A stretch of 64,000 nucleotides of DNA from Paenibacillus hemerocallicola. Its GTDB lineage: Bacteria > Bacillota > Bacilli > Paenibacillales > NBRC-103111. This document shows, in pieces, positions 5,338-49,153 of this stretch. The position numbers and the translations under genes were made by a program. Below the pieces are notes generated by a model, which saw only the letters and a list, made by a program, of their open reading frames with translations, did no database searches and was not told where the DNA came from. The DNA lies in NCBI RefSeq assembly GCF_006265175.1, contig NZ_VDCQ01000017.1, forward strand, positions 1 through 64,000. The letters run 5' to 3'. Position 1 is the first letter of the stretch. The number at the start of each line of letters is the position of its first letter.

Positions 5338-7545
5338 CTACAGGACAATCCACCCGGTCCCGATGCTGAACAACCCGGCGCTTTGTCCCGCAGCCATCAG
5401 CGTGATCGACGACCCGCCGCCGTCAATCGGCTCCGAGCCGCTCGTCTGGATCTGAACCGCATTCGTCCCCGAATCGATTTTTTTGACGACAACCTTCATT
5501 CCGGCTGCATCGGAAGCCGGGGGCAGCGTGACGGCGATCGGCGACGCGGAGGCGTCGACGATGAGCTGGCCGTCCGCGCGCTCAAGCGTCGTGTCGGCCG
5601 CGACCGTCCGGTAAGGCGATCGGATTTGCCGCACCGCATCGGGCAACCAGCTTCCTCGGCAATTCGCGATTCGCCAATAGCCGTCTCCGCTCCCCGCGAT
5701 CGTCAGCGTGTCTCCGACATCGGCAGACTGTACGTCCCAGCCGGAGCCGAACGACGACAAGATCGACTCGCCGCTCTGCGGCACCAGCTTGATCCTATGA
5801 GGGGACTCGACCCGGAACGTGAAGGTGAAGCCCTCCTGCACGGGAGGAAGCGTCAGCGCGATATCCTCCGTCGCTCCGGCGTTCGTCACGATGCCTCCGA
5901 TCCAGTTCAGGCTGACCGGTCCGGCAACCGGCTGGACGTATACATACGGAATCGCATTCTCGACGAGAATGTTGCGGGTATCGGTGTCGAACTGGAACGG
6001 GCTGACCGTATGTCCGACCGATTCGCAGTCGCGGAACCATATATCCCGCACCGTAAAGCCCTCATAGCCGTAAGTGGCAAACCCCCGGCGAATGAGCGAC
6101 GGGCTGCGGTCGTCGATGGACCGGCAATCGATGAAATGAGAGTTGCCCACGCTCGTTCTCGCCTCCGACGTCGTCGAACTGAGGAAGAACGATGCCGCGT
6201 ACGAATAGGCTGCGCCCGTCCCGTTGTTGACATTGCAATTATACGCCGTACAACGGACATAAGTTGTGCGGACGCTGTCGGCCGAGCTCGACAATTCGAA
6301 AAATCCCGACCATTTCTCGTACTCGGCACGACAGTCGATATATTTCACTTCGCCCTTGGCGGCGACCGAGCCGTCCTTGCCGTATACGGTCGCGAACCCG
6401 AAGGCGTTATTGCGGCTGACGCAGTTCTGGAATACGATGTCGACCTGCTCGCTCGCGGGGCTCAGCTTCTTGATCATTGTCATGAAACCGCGGGCCTTGT
6501 TCCCCTCGGCGACGCAATTGACAAAACGGATATTGCGCAGCCGGTCGCCCGGATGATTCGGCTCGATATCGACGCCGGCTTGCGGCGCCGTGCCGATCGT
6601 GTTCGTAAAGCGGCAATTGTCCGCAAGCAAACCGTCCACGGAAATGACCGACATCCCCTGGCGCCTGTTGTTGTCGGCCCGGCAATTTTTGAGCACGATA
6701 TTGCTGCACACCGTGTTCGCGGACTGGTATGCGCCGATATAGAAGCCGTCGCCGCCCGAATCGTTGGCGTTCATATGCTCGATCGTCACGTTCGACGATC
6801 CGCTAATATCGAATATGTGGGCATGCTCGCCGGTCGTATAGGCGGTTTTGTTCATCCGCAGCACGGCCCCGTTGCCGATAATCCGCACGTCGCTAGTGTC
6901 GAGTATGCGGATCAGCTTCTCGTACGGGGCGGTCACGCTCAGCGTATCTACGGCTTGCACAATCGTGCCGGCCTCGAATTCGACAGCTGTGCGGCTCCTG
7001 ATGAACAACTGATGGCTCAAATAATAGCTGCCGCTTTGCTTCGGCACGTAGAGCTTGCGACCCGCCGCCGCATCCAGAGCCGCCTGGAACGCGGCAGTAT
7101 CTTCCGTGACGCCGTCTCCCTTTGCCCCGAACCATTTTACCGAAAGCGCATCGTCGTACAACCGTTTGAACCGGCTGCCGTCCGTTGAAACGACGACCGT
7201 CCCCGTATTGTCGGACGAGACCGTATCGCCCGTATCGAATACGAACCAGCCTTCTTGCCCCGAATCCGTCACGAAGTACAGCGTCTCCGCGGCGGGAGCC
7301 GTTTCCGCCCGCAGTTCGGCGAGAGTCACTTTGCGGCAGCACTCGTCCGTCTCCGACGGCCCATCCTTGTCCTTGTCTTTGTCCTTCTTCTTATATACGG
7401 CATCCGACACCGACGAATCCGCTGCTACACGCTCCCATCCCGTGTTCCCCAAAATGCCGGCCGAAGCCACGGCGACACCCGCCGCCCCCACCTTGGTCAA
7501 CAGCGCTCTTCTGCTCCACCTTGCATCGGAATTGTTATCGGGCAT
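5338..7545 (-). CDS. Tat-exported beta-helix (pectate-lyase-fold) protein 1
   Basis: A 735-residue secreted protein. A twin-arginine signal, SRRALLTKVGAAG (residues 11-23), is followed by a hydrophobic stretch. A lysine/aspartate repeat linker (KKKDKDKDKD, 52-61) leads to a DECC motif (67-70). Next come a small tailspike-like segment (TLYFVTDSGQEGWFVFDTGD) and the hallmark WFGAKGDGVTEDTAAFQAAL of the Pect-lyase_3 (PF12708) right-handed beta-helix. The rest is parallel strands rich in Asn, Asp and Gly, ending in small beta domains. The carbohydrate substrate and catalytic residues are not identifiable. GGGAGG precedes the ATG. It is the second gene after the SBP at 7671-8990, 125 bp downstream, so probably co-transcribed. 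Confidence 0.87.
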   Translation of the reverse strand: MPDNNSDARWSRRALLTKVGAAGVAVASAGILGNTGWERVAADSSVSDAVYKKKDKDKDKDGPSETDECCRKVTLAELRAETAPAAETLYFVTDSGQEGWFVFDTGDTVSSDNTGTVVVSTDGSRFKRLYDDALSVKWFGAKGDGVTEDTAAFQAALDAAAGRKLYVPKQSGSYYLSHQLFIRSRTAVEFEAGTIVQAVDTLSVTAPYEKLIRILDTSDVRIIGNGAVLRMNKTAYTTGEHAHIFDISGSSNVTIEHMNANDSGGDGFYIGAYQSANTVCSNIVLKNCRADNNRRQGMSVISVDGLLADNCRFTNTIGTAPQAGVDIEPNHPGDRLRNIRFVNCVAEGNKARGFMTMIKKLSPASEQVDIVFQNCVSRNNAFGFATVYGKDGSVAAKGEVKYIDCRAEYEKWSGFFELSSSADSVRTTYVRCTAYNCNVNNGTGAAYSYAASFFLSSTTSEARTSVGNSHFIDCRSIDDRSPSLIRRGFATYGYEGFTVRDIWFRDCESVGHTVSPFQFDTDTRNILVENAIPYVYVQPVAGPVSLNWIGGIVTNAGATEDIALTLPPVQEGFTFTFRVESPHRIKLVPQSGESILSSFGSGWDVQSADVGDTLTIAGSGDGYWRIANCRGSWLPDAVRQIRSPYRTVAADTTLERADGQLIVDASASPIAVTLPPASDAAGMKVVVKKIDSGTNAVQIQTSGSEPIDGGGSSITLMAAGQSAGLFSIGTGWIVL

Positions 7546-7670
7546 TGATCATTCCTCCCCATTGTTTAACAAGCGCATTAGTGCTGTCCATCGTTATCGT
7601 CGGGTCGCCGCCGGTTGTCCTTACCGTTATCCGCCGCTCCTCTTGATTAGAAATTATTGGTTTTTCTCTC

Positions 7671-8990
7671 TTATTTCGCTTTGGCGGCCTCGATCTGCTT
7701 GTTAATATCTTCTTCCGTTTCCCGTAGTGCCGTGTTGACATCCTTGCGGTCTATGGCGATGCCGCGTATTCCTTTTTTGACCATCGAGGTTTTGGCTATC
7801 GTATCGTAGATGGTAGCCGGCGCGGGCTTGGCGACCGTATCCTTGAAGAACGCTTGCAAGTTTTTCCCCTTCAAGCCGTCAATCCCGGTGCCGAATTCGC
7901 TCTTCGCCTTGTCGCTCTTGACGATCGGCAGTCGGCCCTGCTTGGACATGATCGTCTGCACCTCGTCGGACATCATGTAGTCGATAACCTGAAACGCCTG
8001 GTCTTTGTATTTGCTTGTAGGCGGAATCGCAAAATACGGCGCATTGAACTGCGAGCCCTTGCCCTCGAAGCCTTGGAAATCGGGCAGCGATACTACGTCC
8101 CAATCGAAGCCTCCCTTGCCGACCGCGGCCGGCAGCTCGCTCATAAAATTCGGTCCCGTCCGCATCGCCAGCGTCTGCACCTTCATGAATTCGTCCTTCT
8201 CCGAAATCTTCGTATCCAGATCGTTGCCGGGAATCGTATGGAATGCCGTCATCGTGCTGAGCCAGCGTTTCCAACCATCGTTGCCGAGTGAAGCCTTCAA
8301 CGTTTTCGGGTCGACGAAGGAGAGGCCGAGCTGGTTTTTGAACACTAGATTCGTTTCTTCGAAGCGGAAGCCTTTGTACTGCACGCCGCCGTCCATCCGT
8401 GTCACTTGCTTGGCTACGTCGAGCAATCCTTCCCATGTCATGCCGTCTTTCGGGTAAGCGACCCCGAACTTGTCGAATATCGTTTTGTTGTAAAACAGGG
8501 CGTTGTTGTTCAGCTCGAAAGGCATCAGAATGAATCTGCCGTCATTGTCCGAGAACGACCGGACGTTCTCCTCCACGCCTGCGGCAAAACGCGTCAGGTC
8601 GAAGCCGTGCTTCTTGATCAGCGGCGTCAAATCCGACACAAGCTGCAGCTCCTTCAGCTTCGTAACGCCGCCGAGCGAATACGAGATCAGATCCGGCACC
8701 TGGCCCGCGCCGACTACATCCTCGATCTTGATGTTGCCTCCACCTACCGTCGTATTCAGCTTGATGTGGGGAAACTTCTTCGTTATCAGCCCTCCGATCT
8801 GATCCGCGAGCACGGCCGAGTTTCCTTCCGTGTAGAAATTCAATGTAACCGGCTCCGTTGAAATCTCGGCTTTGGCGGGTGGCGTATCGGCGGCCGGAGA
8901 GGCCGGCTTCGGGCTTCCGCCCCCGGAGCACCCCGCCATCGCAACGGCAATGAGCGTAACGGCTGACAAGCGCAAACGATGAATAGACAT
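7671..8990 (-). CDS. Extracellular solute-binding lipoprotein 1 (family 1 type)
   Basis: A 439-residue sugar-type ABC solute-binding protein. The chosen start gives MSIHRLRLSAVTLIAVAMAGC, a lipoprotein signal with a lipobox cysteine at residue 21; AAGGGGG lies before it, whereas a longer frame to 9092 lacks a ribosome site. The family-wide motif FYNKTIFDKFGVAYPKDGMT is present and nearly identical in the three other SBPs of the window. The C terminus (VNTALRETEEDINKQIEAAK) is the usual final helix. No permease gene is nearby, so it must use permeases encoded elsewhere or act as a surface binder. It leads an operon with beta-helix protein 1 and faces the AraC gene at 9206. Confidence 0.9.
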   Translation of the reverse strand: MSIHRLRLSAVTLIAVAMAGCSGGGSPKPASPAADTPPAKAEISTEPVTLNFYTEGNSAVLADQIGGLITKKFPHIKLNTTVGGGNIKIEDVVGAGQVPDLISYSLGGVTKLKELQLVSDLTPLIKKHGFDLTRFAAGVEENVRSFSDNDGRFILMPFELNNNALFYNKTIFDKFGVAYPKDGMTWEGLLDVAKQVTRMDGGVQYKGFRFEETNLVFKNQLGLSFVDPKTLKASLGNDGWKRWLSTMTAFHTIPGNDLDTKISEKDEFMKVQTLAMRTGPNFMSELPAAVGKGGFDWDVVSLPDFQGFEGKGSQFNAPYFAIPPTSKYKDQAFQVIDYMMSDEVQTIMSKQGRLPIVKSDKAKSEFGTGIDGLKGKNLQAFFKDTVAKPAPATIYDTIAKTSMVKKGIRGIAIDRKDVNTALRETEEDINKQIEAAKAK

Positions 8991-9035
8991 GGTCAATCCC
9001 CCTTGTTTGAAATCGCTCTCATTTGCAGCGGCAGT

Positions 9036-9065
9036 CGGTTCCGAATGGTTCCAAACGGTTCCGTA
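9036..9065. promoter_or_regulatory. Three GGTTCC direct repeats at exact 10-bp spacing
   Basis: GGTTCC begins at 9037, 9047 and 9057, within CGGTTCCGAA, TGGTTCCAAA and CGGTTCCGTA. The array lies 47-75 bp upstream of the SBP start at 8990, in the region divergent with the AraC gene. Repeats on the same helix face suggest a protein-binding array; that role is inferred. Confidence 0.5.
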
Positions 9066-9104
9066 AGCTTGAATCAGGTTTGCTCGGAACATCGCTGCTC
9101 CTTA

Positions 9105-9135
9105 ACTTTCCATGAAAAAGTTATAGATTTTTGCG
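9105..9135. promoter_or_regulatory. Shared 31-bp upstream block, copy 1
   Basis: This block (TTCC, two bases, GAAAAAGTTATA, then a T-run) matches 12816-12846 at 23 of 31 positions. Copy 1 is upstream of the SBP1/beta-helix operon. Copy 2 is upstream of the isomerase/glycosidase pair. Both transcription units flank the AraC gene at 9206, so this is a candidate regulator site or conserved promoter. Confidence 0.5.
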
Positions 9136-9205
9136 ATTTCCGCGTAACGCCTCCTCCCTCTATGCTACAATAAGGCTGTCAGTGTCGGCGGGGAGGCGGT
9201 TTGTT

Positions 9206-10090
9206 ATGGAAATCAAGAAGAAAAAAGAAATCTTTGAAGGGAAGCGCTTTCCATTCAAAATCGGGATGCAACAGCATACGCCCCATCTGGTGCGCGCCCA
9301 TTGGCACGAACACCTCGAGTTCATCCGGATTATCCGGGAACCGGTCACCCTTCATATCGACAGCGAGACGTTCGAAGCGCGCAAGGGCGACATTTTTTTC
9401 ATCAACAGCAACCAGATCCACTCCGCGACGACGTGGCTGAACGAGCGGGAAAACGGAAATGGCGTCATTCTGGGCATGGTGTTCGACAAATCGATACTGT
9501 TCCTCGCGGCGGACAATCTCCAATTGCGTCAAACGTTTTCACTATTCAACGGCGCAAACGTGATCCGCAACCGGTATTCGCCCGACGATCCGCACTGGGA
9601 GGAACTGGCCGGGGCTATGGACAAGGCGTACGACGAATTTACGGGACAGCAGCCGGCCTACGAATTCGCCATATTGTCGTGCCTGTACCGGATGATGACA
9701 CCTCTGCTTCGTCTGCATCAACACAACCCGCGAAGCGGCGATCCCGACAAGCATGCCGCCTATTACCGCAGACTGAAGCCCGCGCTCGACTATATGGAGA
9801 ACCATTACGCCCGAAAAGTATATATGGAGTCCGTCTGTCAAACCGTCAACATGAGCCCGTACCATTTCTCCAGCATGTTCAAGAAAACGTTCGGCATCCC
9901 GCCCGTCCAATACTTGACCCGCATTCGCGTCGATCAGGCGAAACGCTTGCTCGTCGATCGGGAAATACCGGTTACCGAGATTGCCGAACGGAGCGGCTTT
10001 TGCAATATTAACTACTTCGATAAAGTGTTCAAAGAGCAGAGCGGCTTCACGCCGATGGAATATCGGAAACGGTTCGTTCCGACTTCCTGA
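9206..10090 (+). CDS. AraC-family regulator with cupin sensor domain
   Basis: A 294-residue regulator. The N-terminal half is a cupin-like arm (LVRAHWHEHLEFIRIIREPV, then ARKGDIFFINSNQIHS). The last 100 residues are an AraC double helix-turn-helix: VCQTVNMSPYHFSSMFKKTFG followed by IAERSGFCNINYFDKVFKEQ and the PMEYRK ending. GGGAGG nine bases ahead of the ATG at 9206 decides the start; an upstream start at 9131 has no such site. It is divergent from SBP1 and convergent with the glycosidase gene, overlapping its tail by 44 bp. It probably controls both neighbouring transcription units, which share an upstream block. Confidence 0.9.
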   Translation: MEIKKKKEIFEGKRFPFKIGMQQHTPHLVRAHWHEHLEFIRIIREPVTLHIDSETFEARKGDIFFINSNQIHSATTWLNERENGNGVILGMVFDKSILFLAADNLQLRQTFSLFNGANVIRNRYSPDDPHWEELAGAMDKAYDEFTGQQPAYEFAILSCLYRMMTPLLRLHQHNPRSGDPDKHAAYYRRLKPALDYMENHYARKVYMESVCQTVNMSPYHFSSMFKKTFGIPPVQYLTRIRVDQAKRLLVDREIPVTEIAERSGFCNINYFDKVFKEQSGFTPMEYRKRFVPTS

Positions 10091-11795
10091 CGCCGTACTT
10101 GTCGAGAATGAGACACGCCGTCAAAGCCGCGCTCCAATGGTAGTCGCGGATCGAATCCGTTTTGACGCGGATATCGTACGTGCCGTTGCCCGGTCCTTTA
10201 CGGTCGCATTCGACCGGAGGTCGTTCATCCTTGGAGTCAAAATATTCGAATATAACGCCATACCGCTCGTAGTAGCGGCGTACGAGCTCGATCGTCCGGT
10301 CTGCCAGTGCCTTAGCTTCGTCGTACCGCCCATGCAGCCGCAATCCTTGGACGATCAAATAGTTCAAGTTGATCCACGTAGGCCCCCTCCACATGTCCGT
10401 TCCCCATGCCGGTTCGGACACCGCTATGCTGGGAACCGGATAGACCGTTCCGAAATGTCCGGGATGTCGTAGCATGGCCACGAGCCGGTCGACATGGGAT
10501 TTCGGCGTATCCTCCAGCAGCAGCGGGAGAAACCCGCTCGCCGCCTTCACTTTCGTGAACCGTCCGTCCAGCCGTTTGTCATAAAAGAACCCGTCTTCGT
10601 CGTCCCACAGCTCCGCCAATATACGGGCAGACAACGCTTTTGCTTTGGCGCGCCATCGTTCGGCGTTCTCCTCCATACCAAGCTCGGCCGCAATCTTCGC
10701 GGTATACTCCATGTCCAGAGCGGCAAAAGTGGAGAAATCGACGGCGTCCAGCTTCAGCGCCTCGTCGAACCGGGATGAATTGTCCATGCCGGATTCTCCG
10801 GACCGGCATTTGACGTTCCCTTCGATCGCCCATTCCAGCAAATCGTTGCCGTTGGCGTCCCTATTGTTCAAATCCCACTCCAAATACCGCTCCAAAATCG
10901 GCAGGGCGAATCGCAGCTTGTCTTGGTCGGGCTCGCTCGAATAATTGGCCCATACTCCCCATGCCAAAATCGGCGGCTGCGTAATGGAGCTGTATTTGCC
11001 CGCTGCCGATACCTGATGGACGATCATGCCGTCGGAACGCGCCGAATCGAGCATAGTCTTCAAGCATTGCCACGACACGCCGGCGTCAAGCTCGTTCATC
11101 GCGATCGAATGAAATACGGTATCCCACAGCCACATATCTTTGTGCGGCACCCGGTCGGGCGTGGACCACATTTGCTTGAATACGCCTTCCGGCGACAGCG
11201 TGTTCACTTTCATGACGCTTATGCATTTGCCCAGCAAACGGGCATCAGCCGTGTCGGGTATTGCCGGCACCTGGCGATACAATCGCAGTCTTCGCTCTGT
11301 TTCGCTTGCCGTATCGATCGTCATGGCCACTGTCGCCCGGTCCGCCGCTTCCTCTGCCGACTTGCCGTAACTGACGCCGAACCGGGCGCCGCGCACGGCC
11401 AAAGCGATATAGTCGCCGCCCGCCTCGTCTCGTGTCATCCAAACCTCCGGTGACCATGGCTCCGCCTCCGCACCGTCTTCCCATTCCAGCGTCGGCTGCG
11501 TCCCGATTTGACTGTAGCCGGTCAACGAATGCCAGTCGGAGTAAGCAAGCTCCAGCCCGCCCCCGGGCGACCGCAGCTTGCAGGCGTCTCCCGTAACGAA
11601 CATGGTTTCCGTCTTTTCTCTCGTCGCGCCGAGGCTCAATACCCGCCGTCTTTTCGTATGAACCAGCAGGGAATAAGGAGCCGCCCCCCATGACGCGACA
11701 AACCCGGTAATCGTACGAGTTTCCCCATCCATACCCGAGAAAGCGAACAACCCTCCTTCGCCGATAATATTTGGTAAAATCGCAATTTGTTCCAA
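10047..11795 (-). CDS. MGH1-like (alpha/alpha)6 glycoside hydrolase
   Basis: About 582 residues. The fold is the glucosidase/trehalase-like (alpha/alpha)6 barrel of the MGH1/GH63 type: MWLWDTVFHSIAMNELD around the first conserved acid, GMDNSSRFDEA, and the C-terminal WRGPTWINLNYLIVQGL with a catalytic-acid region. No signal peptide, so it probably acts on imported oligosaccharide. The start is uncertain: the frame has no ATG at the expected place, and I chose TTG at 11795 behind GGAG. An out-of-frame ATG directly follows the upstream stop codon (TGAATG), so a one-base indel near 11820-11870 is possible. It follows the isomerase gene in one operon. Confidence 0.8.
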   Translation of the reverse strand: MEQIAILPNIIGEGGLFAFSGMDGETRTITGFVASWGAAPYSLLVHTKRRRVLSLGATREKTETMFVTGDACKLRSPGGGLELAYSDWHSLTGYSQIGTQPTLEWEDGAEAEPWSPEVWMTRDEAGGDYIALAVRGARFGVSYGKSAEEAADRATVAMTIDTASETERRLRLYRQVPAIPDTADARLLGKCISVMKVNTLSPEGVFKQMWSTPDRVPHKDMWLWDTVFHSIAMNELDAGVSWQCLKTMLDSARSDGMIVHQVSAAGKYSSITQPPILAWGVWANYSSEPDQDKLRFALPILERYLEWDLNNRDANGNDLLEWAIEGNVKCRSGESGMDNSSRFDEALKLDAVDFSTFAALDMEYTAKIAAELGMEENAERWRAKAKALSARILAELWDDEDGFFYDKRLDGRFTKVKAASGFLPLLLEDTPKSHVDRLVAMLRHPGHFGTVYPVPSIAVSEPAWGTDMWRGPTWINLNYLIVQGLRLHGRYDEAKALADRTIELVRRYYERYGVIFEYFDSKDERPPVECDRKGPGNGTYDIRVKTDSIRDYHWSAALTACLILDKYGVRKSERTVSDIPSA

Positions 11796-11868
11796 CCGCT
11801 TCCGCTCCAATTCGTCAAATGTTTTTCCGCTTTTCCCGCTTGCGCGGAGCTGCCGCCCGCACGCGCAT

Positions 11869-12732
11869 TCACGCTTCTTCCCATAGCCGTTTGGCGTTGG
11901 CCAAGCCGATCCTCGACCCGCTCCGGCATTCCTCCATGCCCTCGAATTCGAGCGAGACGTACCCGGCATAGCCGGACTGCTTGATGATCCGCAGCACCTC
12001 GCGCACATCCACGTCTCCGTGGCCGAATATAGCGCCGCGCAAATAGTTGCCCGATGCGCTCCGTCTCCAGCCCGGCCCCGGGTCCATCCTAGACGGCCTG
12101 ACATAAAAATCTTTCAGATGGATCATCGAAGCATGTCCGATCATCCGTTTCACAGCGGCTGCGGGGGATTCGTCGACGCACAAAAAATTGCCTACATCCA
12201 GCGTCGTTTTGAAATTTTCCCGATTCACGGCCTGCAGCAGCGTCAACACCCGCTCGCTCGCCTGAAGATGGTAACCGTGATTTTCCACGCTCGTCACAAT
12301 GCCGAATCGGGCCGCATAATCGGCAATTCTCGCGCAAGCCTCGGCCAGCCTCGGTAAATCTTCCCGGAAGCGGTCCGGCCCGGTCTGCTCCATCGGCCGC
12401 TTGGCCGCGTCGTGCCTCATCCGCTTCGTACCGAGACGATAGGCCCGGTCCACCTGCCGACATACCCGCTCGATCTCCGCCTCGTACTGCTCCCGACTGT
12501 CCGTGATGAAGTCGGCGCCGATCGTATAGCTCGAAATCGCGATTCCGGCCTTTTCGGCTTTTGCTCGAACCGTTTCGATCCAGTCGAAGTCGCCGTCAGC
12601 CGCAAAACCGACCGGCACGATTTCGATATGCGCTCCGCCTTGGTCCGCCGTCCACTGAATGGCGTCCTCGATCGTCATCTCTCCGGAGCGCAGCGCCCGG
12701 ACGAGACTGTAAGAGCTTAAGCCAAGCTTCAA
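11869..12732 (-). CDS. Sugar phosphate isomerase/epimerase-like TIM-barrel protein
   Basis: A 287-residue xylose-isomerase-like TIM barrel (AP_endonuc_2 family). Characteristic pieces are AHIEIVPVGF near the N terminus, IVTSVENHGYHLQ (Glu and His metal ligands), TTLDVGNFL (metal-binding Asp), MIHLKDFYVRP, and the C-terminal GYAGYVSLEFEGME carrying the last Glu ligand. It starts with TTG at 12732 behind AAAGGAG. It is the first gene of an operon with the glycosidase. Members isomerise or epimerise ketoses or act on inositol derivatives; the substrate here is open. Confidence 0.88.
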   Translation of the reverse strand: MKLGLSSYSLVRALRSGEMTIEDAIQWTADQGGAHIEIVPVGFAADGDFDWIETVRAKAEKAGIAISSYTIGADFITDSREQYEAEIERVCRQVDRAYRLGTKRMRHDAAKRPMEQTGPDRFREDLPRLAEACARIADYAARFGIVTSVENHGYHLQASERVLTLLQAVNRENFKTTLDVGNFLCVDESPAAAVKRMIGHASMIHLKDFYVRPSRMDPGPGWRRSASGNYLRGAIFGHGDVDVREVLRIIKQSGYAGYVSLEFEGMEECRSGSRIGLANAKRLWEEA

Positions 12733-17938: not shown

Positions 17939-18700
17939 ATGAAAAAACTTTCCAACAAAGCGCTAACTCTCCTTTCGGTTGTGCTCGGGATCGCACTCTG
18001 GTACGTGCTGTCCAAAGTTCCGGCGATCGGGGCCATCATCAATAATCCGTTTAACGTGGCGAAGACGTTTTTCACCGAACTGGAAAGCGGTCGGCTGTGG
18101 ACGAACATATGGGCGAGCCTGTTCCGCGTCATAGGCGGGTTTTCGCTCGGCTTGCTCGTCGCCATTCCGGTGGCGTTTCTGATGGCCTGGTATTCGATCG
18201 TCCGCGCCGTCGTCGATCCTTGGATCCAGTTTTTCCGCACGATTCCGCCGATCGCGCTGACGCCTATCGTTATCGTCTCCCAAGGGGTCGGGGAATCCGC
18301 CAAAATCTCGATTATTTTCGTAGCGACGTTTCTGGTCATGGTCATCTCGATTTTCCAAGGCGTGCGCAATGTGGACTCGACGCTGCTGCGCGCGGCCCGG
18401 GTGCTGGGCGCGAAAGATAAAGACATTTTTTTCGAAGTCGTCGTGCCCGCCTCCTTCCCTTACATTCTCGTAGGGGTCCGGCTCGGCCTGGCGGCTGCCT
18501 GGACGACGCTCGTGGCGGCGGAATTGACGGGAGCGAGCAAAGGGCTTGGCAATATGATCATGGAAGCGAGCCTGTACTTCCGTATGGATGTCGTTATTCT
18601 CGGCGTGATCGTAATCGGCATGATCGGTCTTGCCATGGATAAATTCGTGTTGTTTCTGGAAAGGAGGCTGACGGGATGGCAGGAAGTGCGTCCATCTTAA
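17939..18700 (+). CDS. ABC importer permease, SsuC/TauC type
   Basis: A 253-residue BPD-type permease with about six membrane spans (TLLSVVLGIALWYVLSKVPA first). The coupling loop with EAA-like sequence, LLRAARVLGAKDKDIFFEVVVPASFPYI, is as in nitrate/sulfonate/taurine importers. It begins 32 bases after the sulfatase stop and overlaps the ATPase gene by 25 bases, so the genes form one operon. Expected cargo is a sulfonate or sulfate ester, by analogy with the AtsRBC and SsuABC systems; this is inference. Confidence 0.9.
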   Translation: MKKLSNKALTLLSVVLGIALWYVLSKVPAIGAIINNPFNVAKTFFTELESGRLWTNIWASLFRVIGGFSLGLLVAIPVAFLMAWYSIVRAVVDPWIQFFRTIPPIALTPIVIVSQGVGESAKISIIFVATFLVMVISIFQGVRNVDSTLLRAARVLGAKDKDIFFEVVVPASFPYILVGVRLGLAAAWTTLVAAELTGASKGLGNMIMEASLYFRMDVVILGVIVIGMIGLAMDKFVLFLERRLTGWQEVRPS

Positions 18701-19509
18701 ACAATGGCACAGAACGCGGACAGCAGGAGGCCGCTCCGGCGAAAATCGAAATCGCCGGACTGTCGAAAATTTTCAAGGGCCGCAACGGGGACGTCGTGGC
18801 GCTGCAAAACACCGACTTGACGATCCGGCAAAACGAGTTCGTTTGCGTCGTAGGACCGAGCGGCTGCGGCAAAACGACATTGCTGAACATTATCGGGGGC
18901 CTGGAGAAAGCTTCGTCCGGCAGCGTCAAGGTCGACGGCAAAGAAGTAACCGGCCCCGGCAAGGAGCGCGGCGTCGTATTCCAGCAATACGCCTTGTTCC
19001 CTTGGAAAACGGTATTGAAAAACGTCGAGTTCGGCTTGAAGCTGCGCGGACTCGGCAAGCAGGAGCGCAAGGAAAAGGCGGAAAGCTATCTGGAAATGGT
19101 CGGACTGAAAGATTTCGCCCATTCGTATCCGAAGGAACTGTCCGGCGGCATGAAGCAGCGCGTCGCCATTGCCAGAGCTTATGCGGTTCAGCCGGAGGTT
19201 CTGCTTATGGACGAGCCGTTCGGCGCCCTGGACGCCCAGACGCGGGCGCAGTTGCAGGAGGATTTGCTCCGGACTTGGCAAAAAGAGAAAAAGACTTGCT
19301 TCTTCATTACCCACGATGTGGAAGAAGCGGTCATTCTCGCCCAACGCGTCATCATTATGAGCGCGCGGCCGGGACGCATCAAGGAAATGATCGACGTGGA
19401 CATTCCTTATCCGCGGGATCAGGCTACGAAGCTGGACAGCCGCTTCGTGGAGATCAAAAACGAAATATGGTCCAAGGTGTACAAGGAATATTTGGAAGTA
19501 TCGAAATAA
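18676..19509 (+). CDS. ABC importer ATPase, SsuB/TauB type
   Basis: A 277-residue ATP-binding subunit: Walker A GPSGCGKTT (about 60-68), Q-loop VFQQYALFPWKTV, signature LSGGMKQRVAIARA, Walker B VLLMDEPFGALD, H-loop FITHDVEEA. AAGGAGG precedes the ATG, inside the permease gene. The FPWKTV Q-loop context is typical of nitrate/sulfonate/taurine importers. It works with the permease before it and the binding protein after it. Confidence 0.93.
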   Translation: MAGSASILNNGTERGQQEAAPAKIEIAGLSKIFKGRNGDVVALQNTDLTIRQNEFVCVVGPSGCGKTTLLNIIGGLEKASSGSVKVDGKEVTGPGKERGVVFQQYALFPWKTVLKNVEFGLKLRGLGKQERKEKAESYLEMVGLKDFAHSYPKELSGGMKQRVAIARAYAVQPEVLLMDEPFGALDAQTRAQLQEDLLRTWQKEKKTCFFITHDVEEAVILAQRVIIMSARPGRIKEMIDVDIPYPRDQATKLDSRFVEIKNEIWSKVYKEYLEVSK

Positions 19510-19545
19510 GCTCGACAAAACAAACTATTATTGGGAGGTCACACC

Positions 19546-20619
19546 ATGTTCCGTACAAGCAATCGGTTATCCAAGCTTTCCGTTACGGCAATCCTACTCC
19601 TTCTGGCGCTGCTGGTCAGCGCCTGCGGCGCAGGCGGCAATACGCAATCGGGCGCTCCCGCCTCCGGCTCGGAAGGGCAAGGCTCTGGCGCGAAATTGGA
19701 AACGGTTAATTTCGCCTATATGCCCGATATGGGCGGAGCCACTCCCGTCGCCGTCGGACTGGAGAAAGGCTTCTTCAAGGAAGCGGGCATCAACTTGAAT
19801 GCCGTCAAATTTTTGAGCGGACCTCCCGAATTTCAGGCGATGGCTTCCGGCGATATCGACATCGCTTATATCGGACCCGGCGCCACCTTCCTGGCCGCCC
19901 AAGGCCAAGGCAACATTCTCGGCATCGTGAGCCTCGGCAACGCCGACATGGTGCTGGCGACGAAAAAATCCGGCATCACCGATTGGGCCGGCTTGAAAGG
20001 CAAAACGGTCGGCGTGCCTAAGGGCACCTCCGGCGAAATGGTGTTGAACCTCGGCATCGAGAAAGCCGGCTTGAAGCCGAGCGACGTCAACATTCTCAAC
20101 ATGGACGTGGCCGGCGCGGTCAGCGCTTTCGTAGCGGGCAAAGTCGACGCGGTCGCGATCTGGAACCCTTACTCGGCCGAAATCGAGAAACAGGTCGGGA
20201 AAGATAACTTCGTCAAGCTGGGCGACAACAGCAATTTTTATCCGGAATATATTTTCCCTTCGAGTTGGGTCGTCAATCCGAAGTTTCTGAAAGAAAAACC
20301 GGACGTCGTCAACAAGTTCATGCAGGCGATCGCCAAGACGACCGATTACAAAATCAAAAACGTGGACGAAGCGATCAAGCTGACTTCGCAATATACGCAA
20401 ATTCCCGAGGAAAATCTGCGTCAGGAAATGACGACGCTCGAATGGCAGACGAACGAGAAGGTCGCGCAGGCGTTCAAGGACGGCACGGCCGTGAAATGGT
20501 ACGACAATTTGCAGCAGCTGTTCGTAAAAAACGGCAAAATGGAGAAGGCGGTTCCTTCCGATACGTTCCTCGCGAAAGAGCCGATCATCAAAGCCGTCGA
20601 GGCGCTCGGCGCCAAATAA
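19546..20619 (+). CDS. SsuA/NMT1-like substrate-binding lipoprotein
   Basis: A 357-residue lipoprotein. The signal LSVTAILLLLALLVSACG gives a lipobox cysteine near residue 27. The mature part has the NMT1/SsuA fold: YMPDMGGATPVAVGLEKGFF, FQAMASGDIDIAYIGPG, LKGKTVGVPKGTSGEM. GGGAGG precedes the ATG at 19546; the frame opens 15 bases earlier without a site. It completes the sulfatase-importer operon, so a sulfate ester or sulfonate is the likely ligand. A GC-rich hairpin follows the stop. Confidence 0.92.
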   Translation: MFRTSNRLSKLSVTAILLLLALLVSACGAGGNTQSGAPASGSEGQGSGAKLETVNFAYMPDMGGATPVAVGLEKGFFKEAGINLNAVKFLSGPPEFQAMASGDIDIAYIGPGATFLAAQGQGNILGIVSLGNADMVLATKKSGITDWAGLKGKTVGVPKGTSGEMVLNLGIEKAGLKPSDVNILNMDVAGAVSAFVAGKVDAVAIWNPYSAEIEKQVGKDNFVKLGDNSNFYPEYIFPSSWVVNPKFLKEKPDVVNKFMQAIAKTTDYKIKNVDEAIKLTSQYTQIPEENLRQEMTTLEWQTNEKVAQAFKDGTAVKWYDNLQQLFVKNGKMEKAVPSDTFLAKEPIIKAVEALGAK

Positions 20620-33129: not shown

Positions 33130-34017
33130 ATGAATCAACCGCTCGTGTACCGGAGCGACAACTATTTTCGAGCCGGAGAACTGTTCAGCATTATCCGTTT
33201 TCACGAACCGAGTAAAGAACACCGCAAGTACCACTCCCATGATTTTGTCGAGATTTGTTATGTGGCGAGCGGCAACGGATATCACATACTGGACGGCGAG
33301 GTGCACCGCGTCACCCGGGGGAATCTGTTCATTATCAATTACGATGTCTCCCACGCCTTCTACCGCGAGGACAACGCAAGTCTCATCATCTACAACATTT
33401 TGTTCAAGCCCGGATTTGTAGACGAATCTTTGATCGATTTCAACGATTTCAACAGCTTGTCGTTATCGTATTTGTTCAACGGCCTACTGGAGAAGCCGTT
33501 CCATCCGAACCTGGCGCTATCTTTCGACGAGATACAAGAGTTCGAATCTTTGATCGAAAAAATATATGCCGAATACAACGAACGACGGTCCGGTTACATC
33601 TCGATCGTTCGTGCCTATGTAATCGAGCTCATTATTCATATGATGCGCTGCTTCGACCGGTACCCCGACAACCGGGAGATGAGCAGAAGACTGGATGTCA
33701 TCTACGCGGCGATGGATTATTTGCGGGAAAATTATACCAGCTCATTCAGCTTGGGGAGCCTTGCGTCCAAATCGTTTTTCAGCAAAAACTACTTTTGCAG
33801 GCTCTTCAAAGAAACGGCGGGTATGACGGTTACGGAGTACGTGCAGAAGCTTCGGATCGAGGAAGCGTGCAAAATGATGGAGAACCCCAATAAGTACATC
33901 ACGGAAATTTCCATGGAAACCGGGTTCGCCGACTATAAATCTTTCTACACAGCGTTTACGAAGCGGGTCGGCATGACACCGAGCGAATACCGGAAACGAA
34001 TGGAAGAAACTACTTAA
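33130..34017 (+). CDS. AraC-family regulator with cupin domain
   Basis: A 295-residue regulator. The N-terminal cupin arm, KYHSHDFVEICYVASGNGYH and RGNLFIINYDVSHAFY, is the typical sugar-sensing part. The C-terminal double helix-turn-helix has LASKSFFSKNYFCRLFKETA, then ISMETGFADYKSFYTAFTKR and PSEYRK. GGAGG precedes the ATG. It is divergent from the MDR operon and upstream of beta-helix protein 2 and SBP2, so it is a candidate activator for either side. Confidence 0.92.
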   Translation: MNQPLVYRSDNYFRAGELFSIIRFHEPSKEHRKYHSHDFVEICYVASGNGYHILDGEVHRVTRGNLFIINYDVSHAFYREDNASLIIYNILFKPGFVDESLIDFNDFNSLSLSYLFNGLLEKPFHPNLALSFDEIQEFESLIEKIYAEYNERRSGYISIVRAYVIELIIHMMRCFDRYPDNREMSRRLDVIYAAMDYLRENYTSSFSLGSLASKSFFSKNYFCRLFKETAGMTVTEYVQKLRIEEACKMMENPNKYITEISMETGFADYKSFYTAFTKRVGMTPSEYRKRMEETT

Positions 34018-37383: not shown

Positions 37384-38109
37384 ATGTACGAGTTTACGAG
37401 ACTATACGGCCGGCTGCAGGAAAAAGCGGATAACCCCGCCGCCCGACCGGTTATTTATGTAGCGATCGGAGACAGCGTCACGCAGGGCTGTATGGAAGAC
37501 GGCGTAGTCGAGCACGAGCAAGTATACCACCAGTTGTTAAGGCTGCGCGTGGCCAAGCGATATCCTTCCAGCATCTTCAACGTGATCAACTCGGGAGTAT
37601 CCGGGGACAGCGTCTCCCGGTCCAGAGGAAGGTGGCAGCGGGACGTCCTGTGCTACAATCCCGACCTGGTGACGATCAAGTTCGGCCTGAATGACGCCCA
37701 TGGCGGAGTAAAGGGAATCGAAGCGTATATCGGCGCCATCCGCGACCTCGTCCGACTCGTCAAGGAAGAGACGGAAGCCGACATCCTCCTCATTACCCCA
37801 AGCATGATGATGAAGCGGGAGAACGGGCTCATATCGCCCGGCCACGAGCATCACATTCCGACTTTCAAGGCCTTGTACGAAGCCGGTCACCTGCTCCGGT
37901 ATGTCGAAGCGTTGCGGGCATTCGCTTCGGCGAGCGGTCTGCCGCTGCTCGACGTCTACGCCATGTGGGAGAAGATGGAGGCGGACGGCGTGGATATACA
38001 CACCCGTCTGTCCAACGGCATCAACCATCCCGACCGACTGTTTCACGAGCAATTCGCCGAAGCGCTGGAGGAAGCGCTGTTCGCGGGAGCGACTCGATCC
38101 GATTCATAA
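37384..38109 (+). CDS. SGNH/GDSL-family hydrolase (esterase)
   Basis: A 241-residue hydrolase. Block I AIGDSVTQG has the nucleophile Ser31, block II NSGVSGDS has the oxyanion Gly, block III GLNDAHGG has Asn103, and block V NGINHPDRLFHEQF supplies the Asp-x-x-His-like pair near residue 215. No signal peptide, so intracellular; a deacetylase for acetylated sugars is the usual role in carbohydrate clusters. GGGAGG precedes the ATG. It probably belongs to the beta-helix 2/SBP2 operon. Confidence 0.9.
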   Translation: MYEFTRLYGRLQEKADNPAARPVIYVAIGDSVTQGCMEDGVVEHEQVYHQLLRLRVAKRYPSSIFNVINSGVSGDSVSRSRGRWQRDVLCYNPDLVTIKFGLNDAHGGVKGIEAYIGAIRDLVRLVKEETEADILLITPSMMMKRENGLISPGHEHHIPTFKALYEAGHLLRYVEALRAFASASGLPLLDVYAMWEKMEADGVDIHTRLSNGINHPDRLFHEQFAEALEEALFAGATRSDS

Positions 38110-44875: not shown

Positions 44876-45709
44876 CTACTTGGCGCCGCCGCGACCGTTT
44901 TTCTGCGCTTCCCGCCACTCACGGGGACTGCTGCCGAACTTTTGCTTGAACAGCCGCGAGAAGTAGTGGATGCTGTTGAACCCCGTCGATTCGGCTATTT
45001 GCTGAATCCCCATATCGGTGTTGGCCAAATAACTGACTGCGGCGCTCAGCCTCAGCTTGTTCAAATAATGCATCGGCGTAACGCCCGCCTCGTTCTTGAA
45101 AGCCCGGACGAGATACGACGGATTCAGATGCACTTGCTTGGCCAGCGCCGTCAAATCGAGCGGATCGTAATAATTCGTTTCCATTTGCCGGATGAGCCAT
45201 TGGATCGATTGTCTTGTCGTCTGGTCCTGCTCCTCGGAGGCGTCGATACGCCCCCGAAAATGATGGCGGATTAAGAGCAGCGTTTTCCTTATATCCAGCA
45301 GGGCGATTTCCTCATAGAACGAAGCATCGCTTTTGCGGCTTAACAAGGACGATGTCAGCGTATCGAGCGTCTGCTTGATGAGCCGCAGCTCCGCGCAATC
45401 GTAGTCCGCCGACCGCTGTAAGCGATTCCATTCGATCGCCTGCTCGACCGTCACGAACGGATCGGATTCCCCGATATCCAGCTCGAGAAACCAGAAGCTT
45501 AGCGGAGACGGAAATCGCAGCAAATGGGGCGTGTTCGGCGTAAGCAGAAACAGACTCGGCGAAGGAACCTCATATTCGAGTCCCATCCACTCCAGCACCG
45601 TCGTCTCTCCTTGCGTAAAGTACAGCATCTCGCAATAAGGGTGTATGCCGCCGCTTCTTCCCGATCGATCGAGAATCCGGTCGTAGTAGTTGAACGTTCT
45701 GATTCGCAA
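44876..45709 (-). CDS. AraC-family regulator (paralogue of 54295-55116)
   Basis: A 277-residue regulator. N-terminal cupin segment GGIHPYCEMLYFTQGETTVL and PSLFLLTPNTPHLLRF. The C-terminal DNA-binding part has LAKQVHLNPSYLVRAFKNEA and IAESTGFNSIHYFSRLFKQK, ending PREWRE. I place the start at TTG 45709, behind GGGAGGG, giving LRIRTFNYY, which aligns with MQIRTFNHH of the paralogue. Its own terminator separates it from the SBP3 promoter. It is a candidate regulator of the SBP3 and SBP4 operons on either side. Confidence 0.92.
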   Translation of the reverse strand: MRIRTFNYYDRILDRSGRSGGIHPYCEMLYFTQGETTVLEWMGLEYEVPSPSLFLLTPNTPHLLRFPSPLSFWFLELDIGESDPFVTVEQAIEWNRLQRSADYDCAELRLIKQTLDTLTSSLLSRKSDASFYEEIALLDIRKTLLLIRHHFRGRIDASEEQDQTTRQSIQWLIRQMETNYYDPLDLTALAKQVHLNPSYLVRAFKNEAGVTPMHYLNKLRLSAAVSYLANTDMGIQQIAESTGFNSIHYFSRLFKQKFGSSPREWREAQKNGRGGAK

Positions 45710-45860
45710 GTGGCTCCCTCCCGTCAATCGCCGTATACGGGAATTATACGGTTACCGGAGTACGCGGGTCAATCGCGCCCGTTCTCAAGCCCGTTTCCGG
45801 CGCGATATGCGGCTTCCGACCAGGCGGTCGGACAAACCGGCCGTTCCGGCAAGCTGCCGG

Positions 45861-47618
45861 CTATAGCTTTATTCTCGCGTCTCCAGCAGACGTCTTGTAA
45901 AGTCTGCCTCCGCTCAAGCCTCCCGTTCCCGCCGAAGCGTCGTCCGGATAAGCCGGTACATGAGCCGTCAGGCCGTAATGGACGGAGGCGCCTGAGTAAT
46001 CGGACAGCAGCGCGGAGGAGCCGATCGCACTCGCGAACCCTTCGATCCGCGTATGATGCTGCCGGTTTTGGATGCTGCAATATACGGTCGTCTTCGCCGC
46101 CATGGCCGGCGTCAGCACGAGACCGGAGGTAACTGTGTCCGTAGCCAGACCGAGCTCCGTATCGCGAACTTTCAGATCGTCCGCCTTGCTGGTCGTCACC
46201 GTATTCGCGCACGTTCCTACATGCTTGATTCCTTTGAATGCGCAGTTCAACGTGGCGAAGACGTCGTCGGCGATCGTGTCGGCTTCGAAGAAGCGGGTAA
46301 ACGAGAGCAGGCTGCCGCAATCTCCGATAAACGTTGCGCCGTCGACCGCGACGTTGGACCAGTCGCCCATGAACAGGGAGCCGATCGTCCCGTATGCGGG
46401 GTCATTATGCAGCGACAGGCTGCCGATCCGCACATTCGAGCCGCGATCGGATACGAACGCGCCGTGCGGACGGGCGTACGTGACCGCCTTTCCGCAATTG
46501 CGGGCGGCCACTCCGCCGACCACGTGCTGCATGTTCACCCCGGGATGAGGGTAGCCGGCCGAGTTCCCGAACAGTCCGATCACCGTCTCGCAGCGTTCGG
46601 CCACGAGGCTGTTCACGACGACTCCCGTATCCTCCTGATTCGTTCCCCCGGCGAGACAGAGCGCCATATAGCAATCGATGGCGATGATGCTTCCGATGAC
46701 CGCTTTCCTTCCTCCGTACAGGCCCGGATTGACGCCGGCCTCGCACGTTACGGCTCTGCCCCCTTTGCGCGACTTGCTGTGCGCCGCATTTTTGACCGTA
46801 ATGCTGCCCGCATGCCATTCCGTATTGTTTCTGCGCAAGTAGAGCCCGCCCTGGGCCGGGATGAGTCCGCCGTCCACCTTCAGCTCGGTGATATGCACGT
46901 TTTTGGCTCCGGGTACGCCGGTAACCGCGCAATCATAAGTTGTTTGCGCGATGATTTTCAACCAATTCGGTCCTCCGAAGGTCGTATTGTTCCACAGCGT
47001 AATCGTCTCCCCGATGCCGTATGCGCCGCCGGCCCAATCCAGCACCGCCGTTCCGCCCCCCTGCTTCTTGAGCTGGAGCGCCATCGCCTGCAGCTGCGGA
47101 TACGAGTCGGTCGCGCCGTCGTCTCCTTTCGCTCCATATCGGGTAGCGAGGAGTCCTCCCGTCTTGCGGATGACGGCGATGTTGCCGTTGACCAATACAT
47201 GATCGCCGTAGCCGTCCGGCGTACCGGCAAAATCTCCCGGAGCGACGATGTCGTACAACGCTCCGCCGAGCGGACCGAGCGGCGAAGCCGCCCAGCCGGC
47301 ATAATAGGAGACGGTGCTGGCCAGCTTTCCGGCCGGAAGATCCGCCAGCTTCATCTCCGCCACATGGTCGAAGCCGGCGAGCGGCGAACAGCAGTCGTCC
47401 GGATTTTGGCCATATACGGCGTTCATGACGGAATGGACGGGCGGAGACGAGTCCGCCGCTGCCGCAAATCCGCTTCGCTCCCCGAGCATCATGCCTGCTG
47501 CCGCGGCGGCTCCCGCGACCGAGAGGGCGGCCAGTACCTCCCTCCGGCTAATCGTGCGGCTTCCCTGTTCGCTGGCGGGGTGTTGCGGCAATAGGTTGTT
47601 TTCCGGGTTCGTCTTCAT
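45861..47618 (-). CDS. Tat-exported beta-helix protein 5
   Basis: A 585-residue secreted protein. Tat signal SRREVLAALSVAGAAAAAG (24-42), then a DDCC motif (74-77), a lead domain (VSYYAGWAASPLGPLGGALY) and TRYGAKGDDGATDSYPQLQA, a variant of the PF12708 entry motif. The beta-helix follows (IIAQTTYDCAVTGVPGAKNV, VVNSLVAERCETVIGLFGNS). It ends soon after the helix. ATG 47618 is chosen (AAGGAG 13 bases upstream, rather long spacing); GTG at 47630 is the alternative. It is second in an operon after SBP4, 91 bp downstream. Confidence 0.86.
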   Translation of the reverse strand: MKTNPENNLLPQHPASEQGSRTISRREVLAALSVAGAAAAAGMMLGERSGFAAAADSSPPVHSVMNAVYGQNPDDCCSPLAGFDHVAEMKLADLPAGKLASTVSYYAGWAASPLGPLGGALYDIVAPGDFAGTPDGYGDHVLVNGNIAVIRKTGGLLATRYGAKGDDGATDSYPQLQAMALQLKKQGGGTAVLDWAGGAYGIGETITLWNNTTFGGPNWLKIIAQTTYDCAVTGVPGAKNVHITELKVDGGLIPAQGGLYLRRNNTEWHAGSITVKNAAHSKSRKGGRAVTCEAGVNPGLYGGRKAVIGSIIAIDCYMALCLAGGTNQEDTGVVVNSLVAERCETVIGLFGNSAGYPHPGVNMQHVVGGVAARNCGKAVTYARPHGAFVSDRGSNVRIGSLSLHNDPAYGTIGSLFMGDWSNVAVDGATFIGDCGSLLSFTRFFEADTIADDVFATLNCAFKGIKHVGTCANTVTTSKADDLKVRDTELGLATDTVTSGLVLTPAMAAKTTVYCSIQNRQHHTRIEGFASAIGSSALLSDYSGASVHYGLTAHVPAYPDDASAGTGGLSGGRLYKTSAGDARIKL

Positions 47619-47709
47619 GCTTCGCGTCACGCTCCTTAATCTCTACGTTCGGATCGGGCATTCCCTTATCCGCCGAAATTTTGGAAAGATCGGATTGTCA
47701 TGCATGCGA

Positions 47710-48999
47710 TCATTTTTTCTTCTGCTGCTCCAGCAGTTTGTCCGCCCTGTCGTTCGCGTCCCTGAGTGCCGAATTGATGTCCTTGCCTGCCAATACTTCA
47801 GTCAGCGCTTTGGCCAGCTCGGCCCTGACGAGCGAATCGTAGGCATGGACCTTGTACAACGGCGCCGACGGCAGCTTGAAGATCGCATCCGTATTTTTGC
47901 CCTTCAGCGACTGGAGGTTCGCTCCGAACACTTTCTGCGGCTCGAGATCGACGAGACTGGATACGTAGCCGCTGCGGCTGATGTCCATCTGCAGTTCCTT
48001 GGAGGTCATATAGGTAATGACTTGGAACGCCGCCTCCTTATGCTTGCTTAGCGAAGAGATGCTCAAATTGTGCGAGTCGACCTGGAACGACTTGCCCGGC
48101 ACCTGCTCGTAGGTCGGCATCGTGACCATGTCCCAGTTCTGATTGACGCCTTTCTTGTAATTGTCCTCGAAATTGCCGAGAACGTTCCAGAAAGCCGACA
48201 TCGCCACCGTTCCTTTGTAGAAATCCTGCATGTTGTTGCCCCGGCTGTTGCCCGGTATGCCGTAGATCGTCCTCAGGTTGTCCAGCGCCAGCGCGAACCG
48301 CTCCGCCTCCAGATTCGCTTTGCCGTCGGCCTTCACGAACGGGGTCGTCAATTGCGAGACGGCCGAGTACGAATCGCTCGCGTCCAGTCCCTTGTATTGG
48401 ACGCCGCCGTCCGTCCGCGTTACTTTGGCCGCCAGCTCCCCCGCCTGCTTCCAGGTCATGCCGTCCTTCGGGTAAGCGACCCCGAACTTGTCGAACAAGT
48501 CCTTGTTGTAATACAGGACCGCGAAGTTGCGATAGATCGGCAAGGCGTACAGCTCGCCCTTGTCTCCCCACATCTTGATCGCCTCGATGGCGAGCGGGTC
48601 GAGCTTCGATACGTCGAAGCCGTTTTTCTTTACGAGCTCGTTCAAGTCCTGGAGCACGTTCAGGTTGATATATTCCGCATACCACGGCGTACTGTTGTAG
48701 ATCAGGTCCGGGAACGTACCCGCCGCCACGAGATCCTCCGGCAGCTGTCCCTTTTGCCTGAGCAGCGGCTGCAGCGTAATGTGCGGATATTTTTTGCGCA
48801 CCGCCTCTACGATCAGATCCTGGATCGGAAAAGCGTTCTGCATGTACAGCGTAAGCGTGACCGGCTCCGGAGCGGGCTGCGTGCTCTTGCCGCCATTCGC
48901 CGTCTCCTGCCCTTTCGACTCTCCCGCGCTTCCCTGGCCGCAGCCCGTCGTCGCGACCAGCGCCGTCGCGAGCGCCGCTAACGTCCATAAACGTTTCAT
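47710..48999 (-). CDS. Extracellular solute-binding lipoprotein 4
   Basis: A 429-residue lipoprotein. The signal KRLWTLAALATALVATTGCG has its lipobox Cys near residue 20. Same family as SBP1-3: YYNKDLFDKFGVAYPKDGMT, and the final KDINSALRDANDRADKLLEQ. AAGGGGG lies before the ATG. It leads the operon with beta-helix protein 5. The promoter module copy 3 is immediately upstream, with a leader of only about 25-30 bases. No permease is linked. Confidence 0.91.
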   Translation of the reverse strand: MKRLWTLAALATALVATTGCGQGSAGESKGQETANGGKSTQPAPEPVTLTLYMQNAFPIQDLIVEAVRKKYPHITLQPLLRQKGQLPEDLVAAGTFPDLIYNSTPWYAEYINLNVLQDLNELVKKNGFDVSKLDPLAIEAIKMWGDKGELYALPIYRNFAVLYYNKDLFDKFGVAYPKDGMTWKQAGELAAKVTRTDGGVQYKGLDASDSYSAVSQLTTPFVKADGKANLEAERFALALDNLRTIYGIPGNSRGNNMQDFYKGTVAMSAFWNVLGNFEDNYKKGVNQNWDMVTMPTYEQVPGKSFQVDSHNLSISSLSKHKEAAFQVITYMTSKELQMDISRSGYVSSLVDLEPQKVFGANLQSLKGKNTDAIFKLPSAPLYKVHAYDSLVRAELAKALTEVLAGKDINSALRDANDRADKLLEQQKKK

Positions 49000-49032
49000 T
49001 GTGATTCCCCCTTGGTTAATCGCTACACCTTA

Positions 49033-49153
49033 ATCATAATGAAACGCCGCCGCGAGGTCTTTAGATGATCCGCACCTATCGTCTACTGTGCCAATTCCGG
49101 GAAACCGCTTTCCGCATATCGTCAATCGACCCCGTTTGCACAAAACTGACATG
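49033..49153 (-). promoter_or_regulatory. Shared promoter module, copy 3 (SBP4 operon)
   Basis: On the minus strand: -10 TATGAT (complement of 49033-49038), 17 bases, CTAAAGACC (complement of 49056-49064). The box CGTTTGCACAAAACTGACAT is at 49134-49153, 78 bp from GGTCTTTAG. Between them GGAAACCGCTTTCC (49101-49114) is a small inverted repeat, partly shared with copy 2. Confidence 0.65.

Follow-up and report, generated by a model that had tools for sequence, protein, structure and literature searches.

A 64,000-nucleotide stretch of the Paenibacillus hemerocallicola genome (NZ_VDCQ01000017.1, positions 1-64,000, on contig C77 of the 9.65 Mb genome; hereafter the window) encodes four lipoproteins of the solute-binding protein (SBP) type that lack a permease gene beside them, each adjoined by one or two proteins with a predicted twin-arginine translocation (Tat) signal, the first of which is modelled as a phage tailspike-like beta-helix. 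We find that the adjacency of such SBPs and Tat proteins is strong, if not constant, across the genome and recurs in related species, and we think it reasonably likely that each pair forms a small glycan-foraging unit, in which cleavage by the Tat protein and oligosaccharide capture by the SBP would be served by permeases encoded elsewhere. The system is real and larger than the initial annotation of this DNA, a reading of the letters alone, had supposed; its mechanism is ordinary in outline, and its scale, the absence of permeases and the reshuffling of its parts are unusual.

All nine open reading frames (ORFs) were found where the initial annotation had placed them: the SBPs P0002 (7671-8990, minus strand, longest ORF to 9092), P0004 (35943-37280, plus), P0007 (42998-44326, minus) and P0009 (47710-48999, minus), and the Tat-signal proteins P0001 (5338-7545, minus, 735 residues), P0003 (34254-35915, plus), P0005 (38173-40230, minus), P0006 (40403-42853, minus) and P0008 (45861-47618, minus). 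The four paralogous SBPs all match SBP_bac_1 and/or SBP_bac_8 above the curated cut-off, each of the other three is 34% identical to the first, and candidate lipobox cysteines can be read directly in all of them (MAGC, LIGC, AAGC and TTGC). They share the sequence F-D-K-F-G-V-x-Y-P-K-D-x-M-T-W, identical except at the x positions, and their best relatives in named genomes come from Paenibacillus species or from metagenome-assembled genomes labelled Paenibacillaceae or Bacilli. In the five Tat partners the N-terminus is the only part clearly in common, with an SRR motif, a hydrophobic stretch and V-x-x-x-V-Y in 5/5; SRR and the hydrophobic stretch predict Tat export. Pfam TAT_signal scores 14 bits in one of the nine window proteins, below its cut-off of 22.7, and the genome carries two copies of TatC.

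Adjacency was measured with a Tat leader profile built from 50 N-termini, which gave at least 94 matches at E <=0.01 in this genome (best 150 of 237 candidates scored), and with genes called by a codon-based script that favours SBP, Tat and permease ORFs and was applied identically to a background of 20 arbitrary 20-kb regions (L227-L246). The loci carry a selection bias, as L001-L060 were picked by PF12708 (70 places in the genome) and L207-L226 by the Tat profile. Among the 90 Tat proteins in these loci, 47, 63 and 70 have an SBP within one, two and three genes, versus 34, 62 and 83 of 284 background genes (Fisher p = 3e-14, 2e-16 and 6e-16), and we reject chance adjacency, the arbitrary regions lying far below the Tat loci. 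Random placement (500 shuffles; gene extents assumed to be 1.9 kb, 247 SBPs listed, the 2 weakest of the 94 Tat matches dropped) gave a smaller effect in the same direction, with 35 of 92 Tat N-termini within 1 kb of an SBP against a shuffled mean of 14.9 and a maximum of 27. Direct SBP/Tat neighbours lie on the same strand in 47 of 52 instances, with the SBP upstream in 34 and a gap below 150 bp in 37 of the 47 same-strand cases. The pairing, described initially as constant, is so within the window and not across the genome, where an SBP within two genes accompanies only 63 of the 90 Tat proteins, whereas the proposed link to AraC regulators was borne out: an AraC gene lies within three genes of 51/90 Tat proteins as opposed to 75/308 arbitrary genes. 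As candidates for Gram-positive polysaccharide utilization loci, these loci contain AraC and glycan genes and a transporter part reduced to an SBP.

SBPs are so common in this genome (25 of 324 genes called in the arbitrary regions, about 8%, an extreme density, 18 of the 25 without a permease within three genes in the stretch) that any gene will often have one as its neighbour, and adjacency might therefore reflect nothing but common carbohydrate loci, with the Tat proteins acting on the cell's own exopolysaccharide (EPS) or wall polymer or serving as adhesins. A published account describes such a case, WceF of Pantoea stewartii, a trimeric, tailspike-like enzyme that is exported by Tat and hydrolyses the EPS of its own producer (PMC7949094), and the structural matches of the P0001 model include PfbA, which is titled a surface adhesin. 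We nevertheless hold this to be unlikely, since adjacency is enriched three- to fourfold over arbitrary genes, the neighbours are mostly co-oriented and closely spaced, and outgroups show the pattern too, with SBPs of other types, and since about 90 different members would be hard to account for by one or two own polymers.

The second defining property of these SBPs is the lack of permeases. The window SBP profile retrieved 441 first-look candidates in the genome, the best 150 of which were scored and all passed (150/150), and from the SBP density in the arbitrary regions we roughly estimate several hundred permease-less SBPs. Set against the best 150 of 219 candidate PF00528 genes, none of the 150 SBPs has a permease within 1.5 kb and two have one within 3 kb; no listed PF00528 permease lies beside any of the four window SBPs, and only 2 of the 90 Tat proteins have a permease within three genes. 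The strict FDKFGV-YPKD-MTW form occurs in 30/120 SBPs near a Tat protein, in 44/141 others and in 0/37 near a permease, such that this motif, rightly noticed as common to the four window SBPs, marks the permease-less SBP family and not the pairing. The initial annotation also stated that the window holds no sugar permease. A permease gene is in fact present (17939-18700, PF00528 at 18161-18673), but it stands in a row with an ABC ATPase and an NMT1-type SBP (17939-20619) and is therefore not of the sugar type by context; we take this importer to be of the taurine, nitrate or thiamine-precursor kind.

Beyond this strain, the Tat profile at E <=1e-5 matched 71/104 genomes of the family: the five congeneric genomes range from 13 to at least 67 matches, and of the other 66, 62 have 1-7 and four have 14, 18, 39 and 43. 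In a draw of 398 genomes from the phylum (<=17 candidates scored per genome), P. hemerocallicola alone matched. The claim that adjacency extends past the strain held: among 20 outgroup loci from 19 genomes, drawn from the listed best matches of the Tat profile search, 15 have an SBP within three genes, 19 have one within five, and 13 have a permease within three. At 82-244 first-look SBP candidates in outgroup genomes of 4.3-9.2 Mb, roughly 15% would be expected to have an SBP within three genes (arithmetic at about one gene per kb, not a measured null). In 20 further loci (L187-L206), taken from the same genus and three other genomes, 21/28 Tat proteins have an SBP and 13/28 a permease within three genes. 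The initial annotation had regarded SBPs working only with standard permeases as evidence against itself; the Tat proteins of relatives do adjoin SBP-permease-permease sets, which comes close to this, while most SBPs of P. hemerocallicola are permease-less.

Proteins of the P0001 type illustrate how the two arrangements relate. In other genomes (>250 bits, four genus codes) an SBP and at least two permeases lie within a few genes in 11/11 loci, whereas each of the four copies in P. hemerocallicola is at most two genes away from a permease-less SBP. The genus contains both arrangements, because in G010 a P0001 orthologue (78% identical) adjoins a P0002 orthologue (86%) with no permease, and in G009 (L351) a P0001-like protein adjoins a permease-less SBP. 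In G008 the strand order is flavin adenine dinucleotide (FAD) oxidoreductase, LacI-like regulator (by eye), SBP, two permeases, Tat protein and P0001-type Tat protein; in the window it is SBP, P0001 and FAD oxidoreductase (3370-4704, minus strand, PF12831). The two oxidoreductases are 86% identical, the G008 SBP is 27% identical to P0002, and a counterpart of the G008 permease (85%) is found on contig C80 of P. hemerocallicola with an SBP of its own and no Tat protein in the stretch. In G009 and G011 a P0002 orthologue (80%) is directly followed by the FAD oxidoreductase (86% and 81% identical to the window gene), and in G009 it is preceded by a gene 74% identical to the glycoside hydrolase upstream of the first window SBP (10047-12104, minus strand, MGH1-like with GH63/trehalase matches). 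We infer from these gene orders that the importer set and the permease-less SBP may be interchangeable within one catabolic module, with replacement possible in either direction, an interchange that would support uptake via permeases encoded elsewhere.

The initial annotation had further proposed that one fixed module was amplified into several specificities. This was rejected genome-wide: over 43 adjacent pairs SBP and beta-helix protein similarities are uncorrelated (Mantel r = -0.05, p = 0.86), and similar SBPs have unrelated partners (L019/L208) as similar Tat proteins have dissimilar SBPs (L218/L221). Resolved by domain over 40 pairs, neck and core are correlated (r = 0.256, p < 0.001) and leader and neck weakly so (r = 0.152, p = 0.014), while leader and core are not (r = 0.008) and the SBP correlates with no domain of the Tat protein; leader comparisons have little power because the leader is short. 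In an SBP tree (298 rows, FastTree) with permease-less SBPs labelled by presence or absence of a Tat neighbour, the label is not clustered among own-genome rows (32 changes versus a shuffled mean of 30.6) and is clustered over all rows (68 versus 86.3, minimum 74) and in other species (29 versus 36.7, minimum 30). Reshuffling is not entirely free. The two SBPs of P. hemerocallicola closest to P0002 (74% and 55%) adjoin P0001 relatives (35% and 73%, respectively; left out of the Mantel test, as their leaders miss the Tat profile), an SBP with a Tat protein of 838-844 residues recurs in the own genome, G009 and G010, the unit on contig C122 matches one on C70 of G009, and the P0002 and P0001 orthologues stand side by side in G010. 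The units thus appear to have been assembled mostly by reshuffling SBP and enzyme genes, and some, P0002/P0001 included, look co-inherited.

The SBP also has other companions. Around SBP-centred loci of other species a Tat protein lies within two genes in 16/76 and a permease in 3/76, and among 109 direct SBP neighbours (one of 110, of 2302 residues, was dropped) the families include AraC (29), AraC_binding (12), GH31 (4), GH95 (3), GDSL (3) and sulfatase (2) as well as oxidoreductases. SBP_bac_1 was matched by 4 of these 109 neighbours, so the SBP profile misses some SBPs. As the Tat protein is one frequent companion among these AraC, glycoside hydrolase, GDSL and sulfatase neighbours, the SBP looks like a hub and the Tat protein like one plug-in of several.

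In the foraging unit that we favour, the Tat protein would fold before leaving the cytoplasm, probably into a trimer as phage tailspikes do, be exported in folded form and then cleave or modify one extracellular polysaccharide; the lipid-anchored SBP encoded next to it would capture the released oligosaccharides and, because no permease gene lies beside it, deliver them to CUT1-type permeases encoded elsewhere, and AraC-type regulators in the cytoplasm would respond to the imported sugar. The interpretation of the initial annotation, a surface capture/cleavage complex, is in this sense partly supported, a physical complex of the two proteins being putative. Several observations weigh against it. 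No SBP lies within three genes of 20/90 Tat proteins in the stretch examined; with the best 150 of 219 PF00528 candidates and the best 150 of 441 SBP candidates listed, permeases near SBPs could have been missed; P0002 orthologues lack a Tat protein in G009 and G011 and have one in G010; and the missing co-divergence over 43 pairs argues against a fixed matched specificity of the two halves. Moreover, stretches around 20 listed permeases confirmed a permease by profile in 18, with an SBP within three genes in 17 of these 18 (L326 alone, as the one candidate, being without), and revealed no clearly free permease pair. This last result would fit permease-less SBPs that are not transport parts and instead are surface sensors or co-receptors, binding the product of the beta-helix enzyme and signalling to a kinase or regulator, as does the report on NagB1 of Paenibacillus FPU-7, a chitooligosaccharide-binding SBP encoded beside a two-component system and not beside transmembrane domains (PMC8233162). 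We find a sensory role rather doubtful, because His_kinase accounts for 2/109 direct SBP neighbours in other species (among the 25 commonest families listed) compared to the AraC and AraC_binding counts above, and because both AraC genes beside window pairs (33130-34017, plus strand, AraC_binding/cupin; 44876-45727, minus strand) carry AraC_binding. The occurrence of one enzyme type with either a full importer set or a permease-less SBP, depending on the genome, also fits transport better.

Most family members also carry a motif behind the Tat signal. When 156 members from P. hemerocallicola and other species were aligned on VY (which fixes the Y; the members were collected with a profile that contains the motif), V occurred at -4 in 132 and at 0 in 129, G followed Y in 119, and V-x-x-x-V-Y or V-x-x-V-Y was present in 121. 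In loci chosen by PF12708, V-x(2,3)-[VA]-Y-[GASNK] was found in 47/66 Tat-like rows (about five of which are by eye not family members) versus 72/2960 random 66-residue segments of these proteins, and a similar regular expression retrieved one unrelated sequence among the other called genes of the examined loci. An A-x-A site is visible in 60/156 members and ends 0-6 residues ahead of the motif in 48, so V-x-x-x-V-Y-G probably lies close to the start of the mature protein, ahead of a Gly-rich stretch. An adjacent CC pair occurs in the first 40 residues after VY in 24/83 own members and 35/156 overall, and the cysteine frequency there is 0.029 versus 0.016 in the rest. A P0001 paralogue at L043 10015-11769 (73% over 435 residues) has a leader with SRG instead of SRR and no Tat profile score, and is possibly decaying. 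At L215 (contig C87) neighbouring Tat-family proteins of 971 and 1006 residues adjoin a 979-residue ORF, with no SBP in the stretch examined.

The beta-helix label of the initial annotation proved firm for P0001, good for P0005, limited to the C-terminus for P0006 and weak for P0003 and P0008. P0001 matches PF12708 and PF13229, its model is a right-handed parallel beta-helix with a tailspike neck that resembles phage tailspikes and polysaccharide enzymes, and acidic residues are conserved among its relatives; the model thus predicts the fold of glycan enzymes. Residues 186-679 of P0005 match a phage tail-fibre family (phrog_27367, 5.5e-48), P0006 matches phage tail families from residue 685, with the intramolecular chaperone domain Peptidase_S74 (PF13884), and the matches of P0008 (phrog_14442, 6.5e-5; single-sequence fold at pLDDT 31 only) and P0003 (phrog_14824, 0.0017) are weak. 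Family scans covered 75 of the 90 own Tat proteins (9 short or partial and 6 others left out). The S74 chaperone was found in 3/75, P0006 being a chromosomal Tat-signal protein that carries it.

Matches to phage families are widespread: 39/75 match the tail spike family phrog_2234, the best E-value in the set is 1.7e-149 (tail fibre, phrog_23059), and P0001 relatives are encoded on 97 viral-contig stretches, mostly matching the P0001 neck. Such likeness could be taken to mean that the Tat proteins are domesticated phage receptor-binding proteins with a role towards phages or competitors, as decoys or as anti-phage or tailocin components. We regard this as very improbable, given that the Tat leader profile finds no match at E 0.01 among ORFs of at least 150 residues in 79 viral loci and that the labelled neighbours are SBPs, permeases and AraC (virion genes were not systematically searched for). 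Scans of viral contigs returned no relatives of P0008 or P0005. On one viral-class contig (L288, 785-2977) an ORF starts with a Tat-like leader, TRRSMLQLTG, and continues into a P0001-like stretch; this ORF does not match the family profile.

A more ambitious idea, which we put forward only tentatively and with some doubt, is that of a plug-in display platform, in which the Tat leader and a mature V-[TS]-x-[SA]-V-Y-G motif, bound by a putative surface partner, may carry interchangeable tailspike-type glycan enzymes exchanged with phages, each combinatorially paired with one of the several hundred permease-less SBPs, which would feed a few permeases in common. On this view the motif would direct the sorting or docking of folded Tat cargo; to our knowledge, no signal of this kind has been described.

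SBPs, Tat signals, beta-helices and AraC regulators are each ordinary. CUT1 ABC importer loci and Gram-positive polysaccharide utilization loci combine an SBP with an AraC or LacI regulator and genes for carbohydrate-active enzymes, a composition also seen here, but permease genes are absent beside most of the present SBPs. Orphan SBPs and one Tat-exported tailspike-like enzyme are likewise already known. NagB1 (Paenibacillus sp. FPU-7) is reported to be a lipid-anchored oligosaccharide SBP without adjacent transmembrane domains, as here, and unlike here adjoins a two-component system (PMC8233162); to the window SBP profile its PDB chain, 7ehp, is no more than a distant match (1.7e-8). WceF is a precedent for P0001 in its Tat export and tailspike-like fold, but is reported as one gene for one EPS in a Gram-negative, with a P22-type head domain and, in the passages considered, no SBP partner (PMC7949094), as compared with about 90 paralogues here with another, short N-terminal motif and SBP neighbours. 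Phage tailspikes (phi29 gp12, Fri1 gp49, K2-2 TSP) share the beta-helix and the neck, and in a few members the S74 chaperone, and differ in that a Tat leader and chromosomal SBP loci are found here. Open-access full texts, a body without most subscription journals, yielded no account of the SBP/Tat tailspike combination, the family size or the motif.

Elsewhere in the window, the second module includes a GDSL-type lipase/acylhydrolase (37384-38109, plus strand), and 58009-61214 holds an amidohydrolase, an alanine-racemase-like/D-serine dehydratase-like gene and a small, presumably RidA-like protein. The ABC operons of L167 and L174 include, downstream of their Tat proteins, alanine-racemase-like genes 48-49% identical to that of the window.

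If the foraging interpretation is true, a single genome, that of P. hemerocallicola, would hold some 90 probable Tat substrates of the same kind, whereas B. subtilis has a handful of Tat substrates, and the motif recurring behind the Tat signal makes the sorting question directly testable. It would also supply a broad natural collection of enzyme/binding-protein pairs acting on glycans, and in it one could test whether many SBPs can use few permeases in common. One Paenibacillus lineage would thus have split the parts of the sugar ABC importer, with capture proteins in the hundreds and exported depolymerases in the dozens freely combined.

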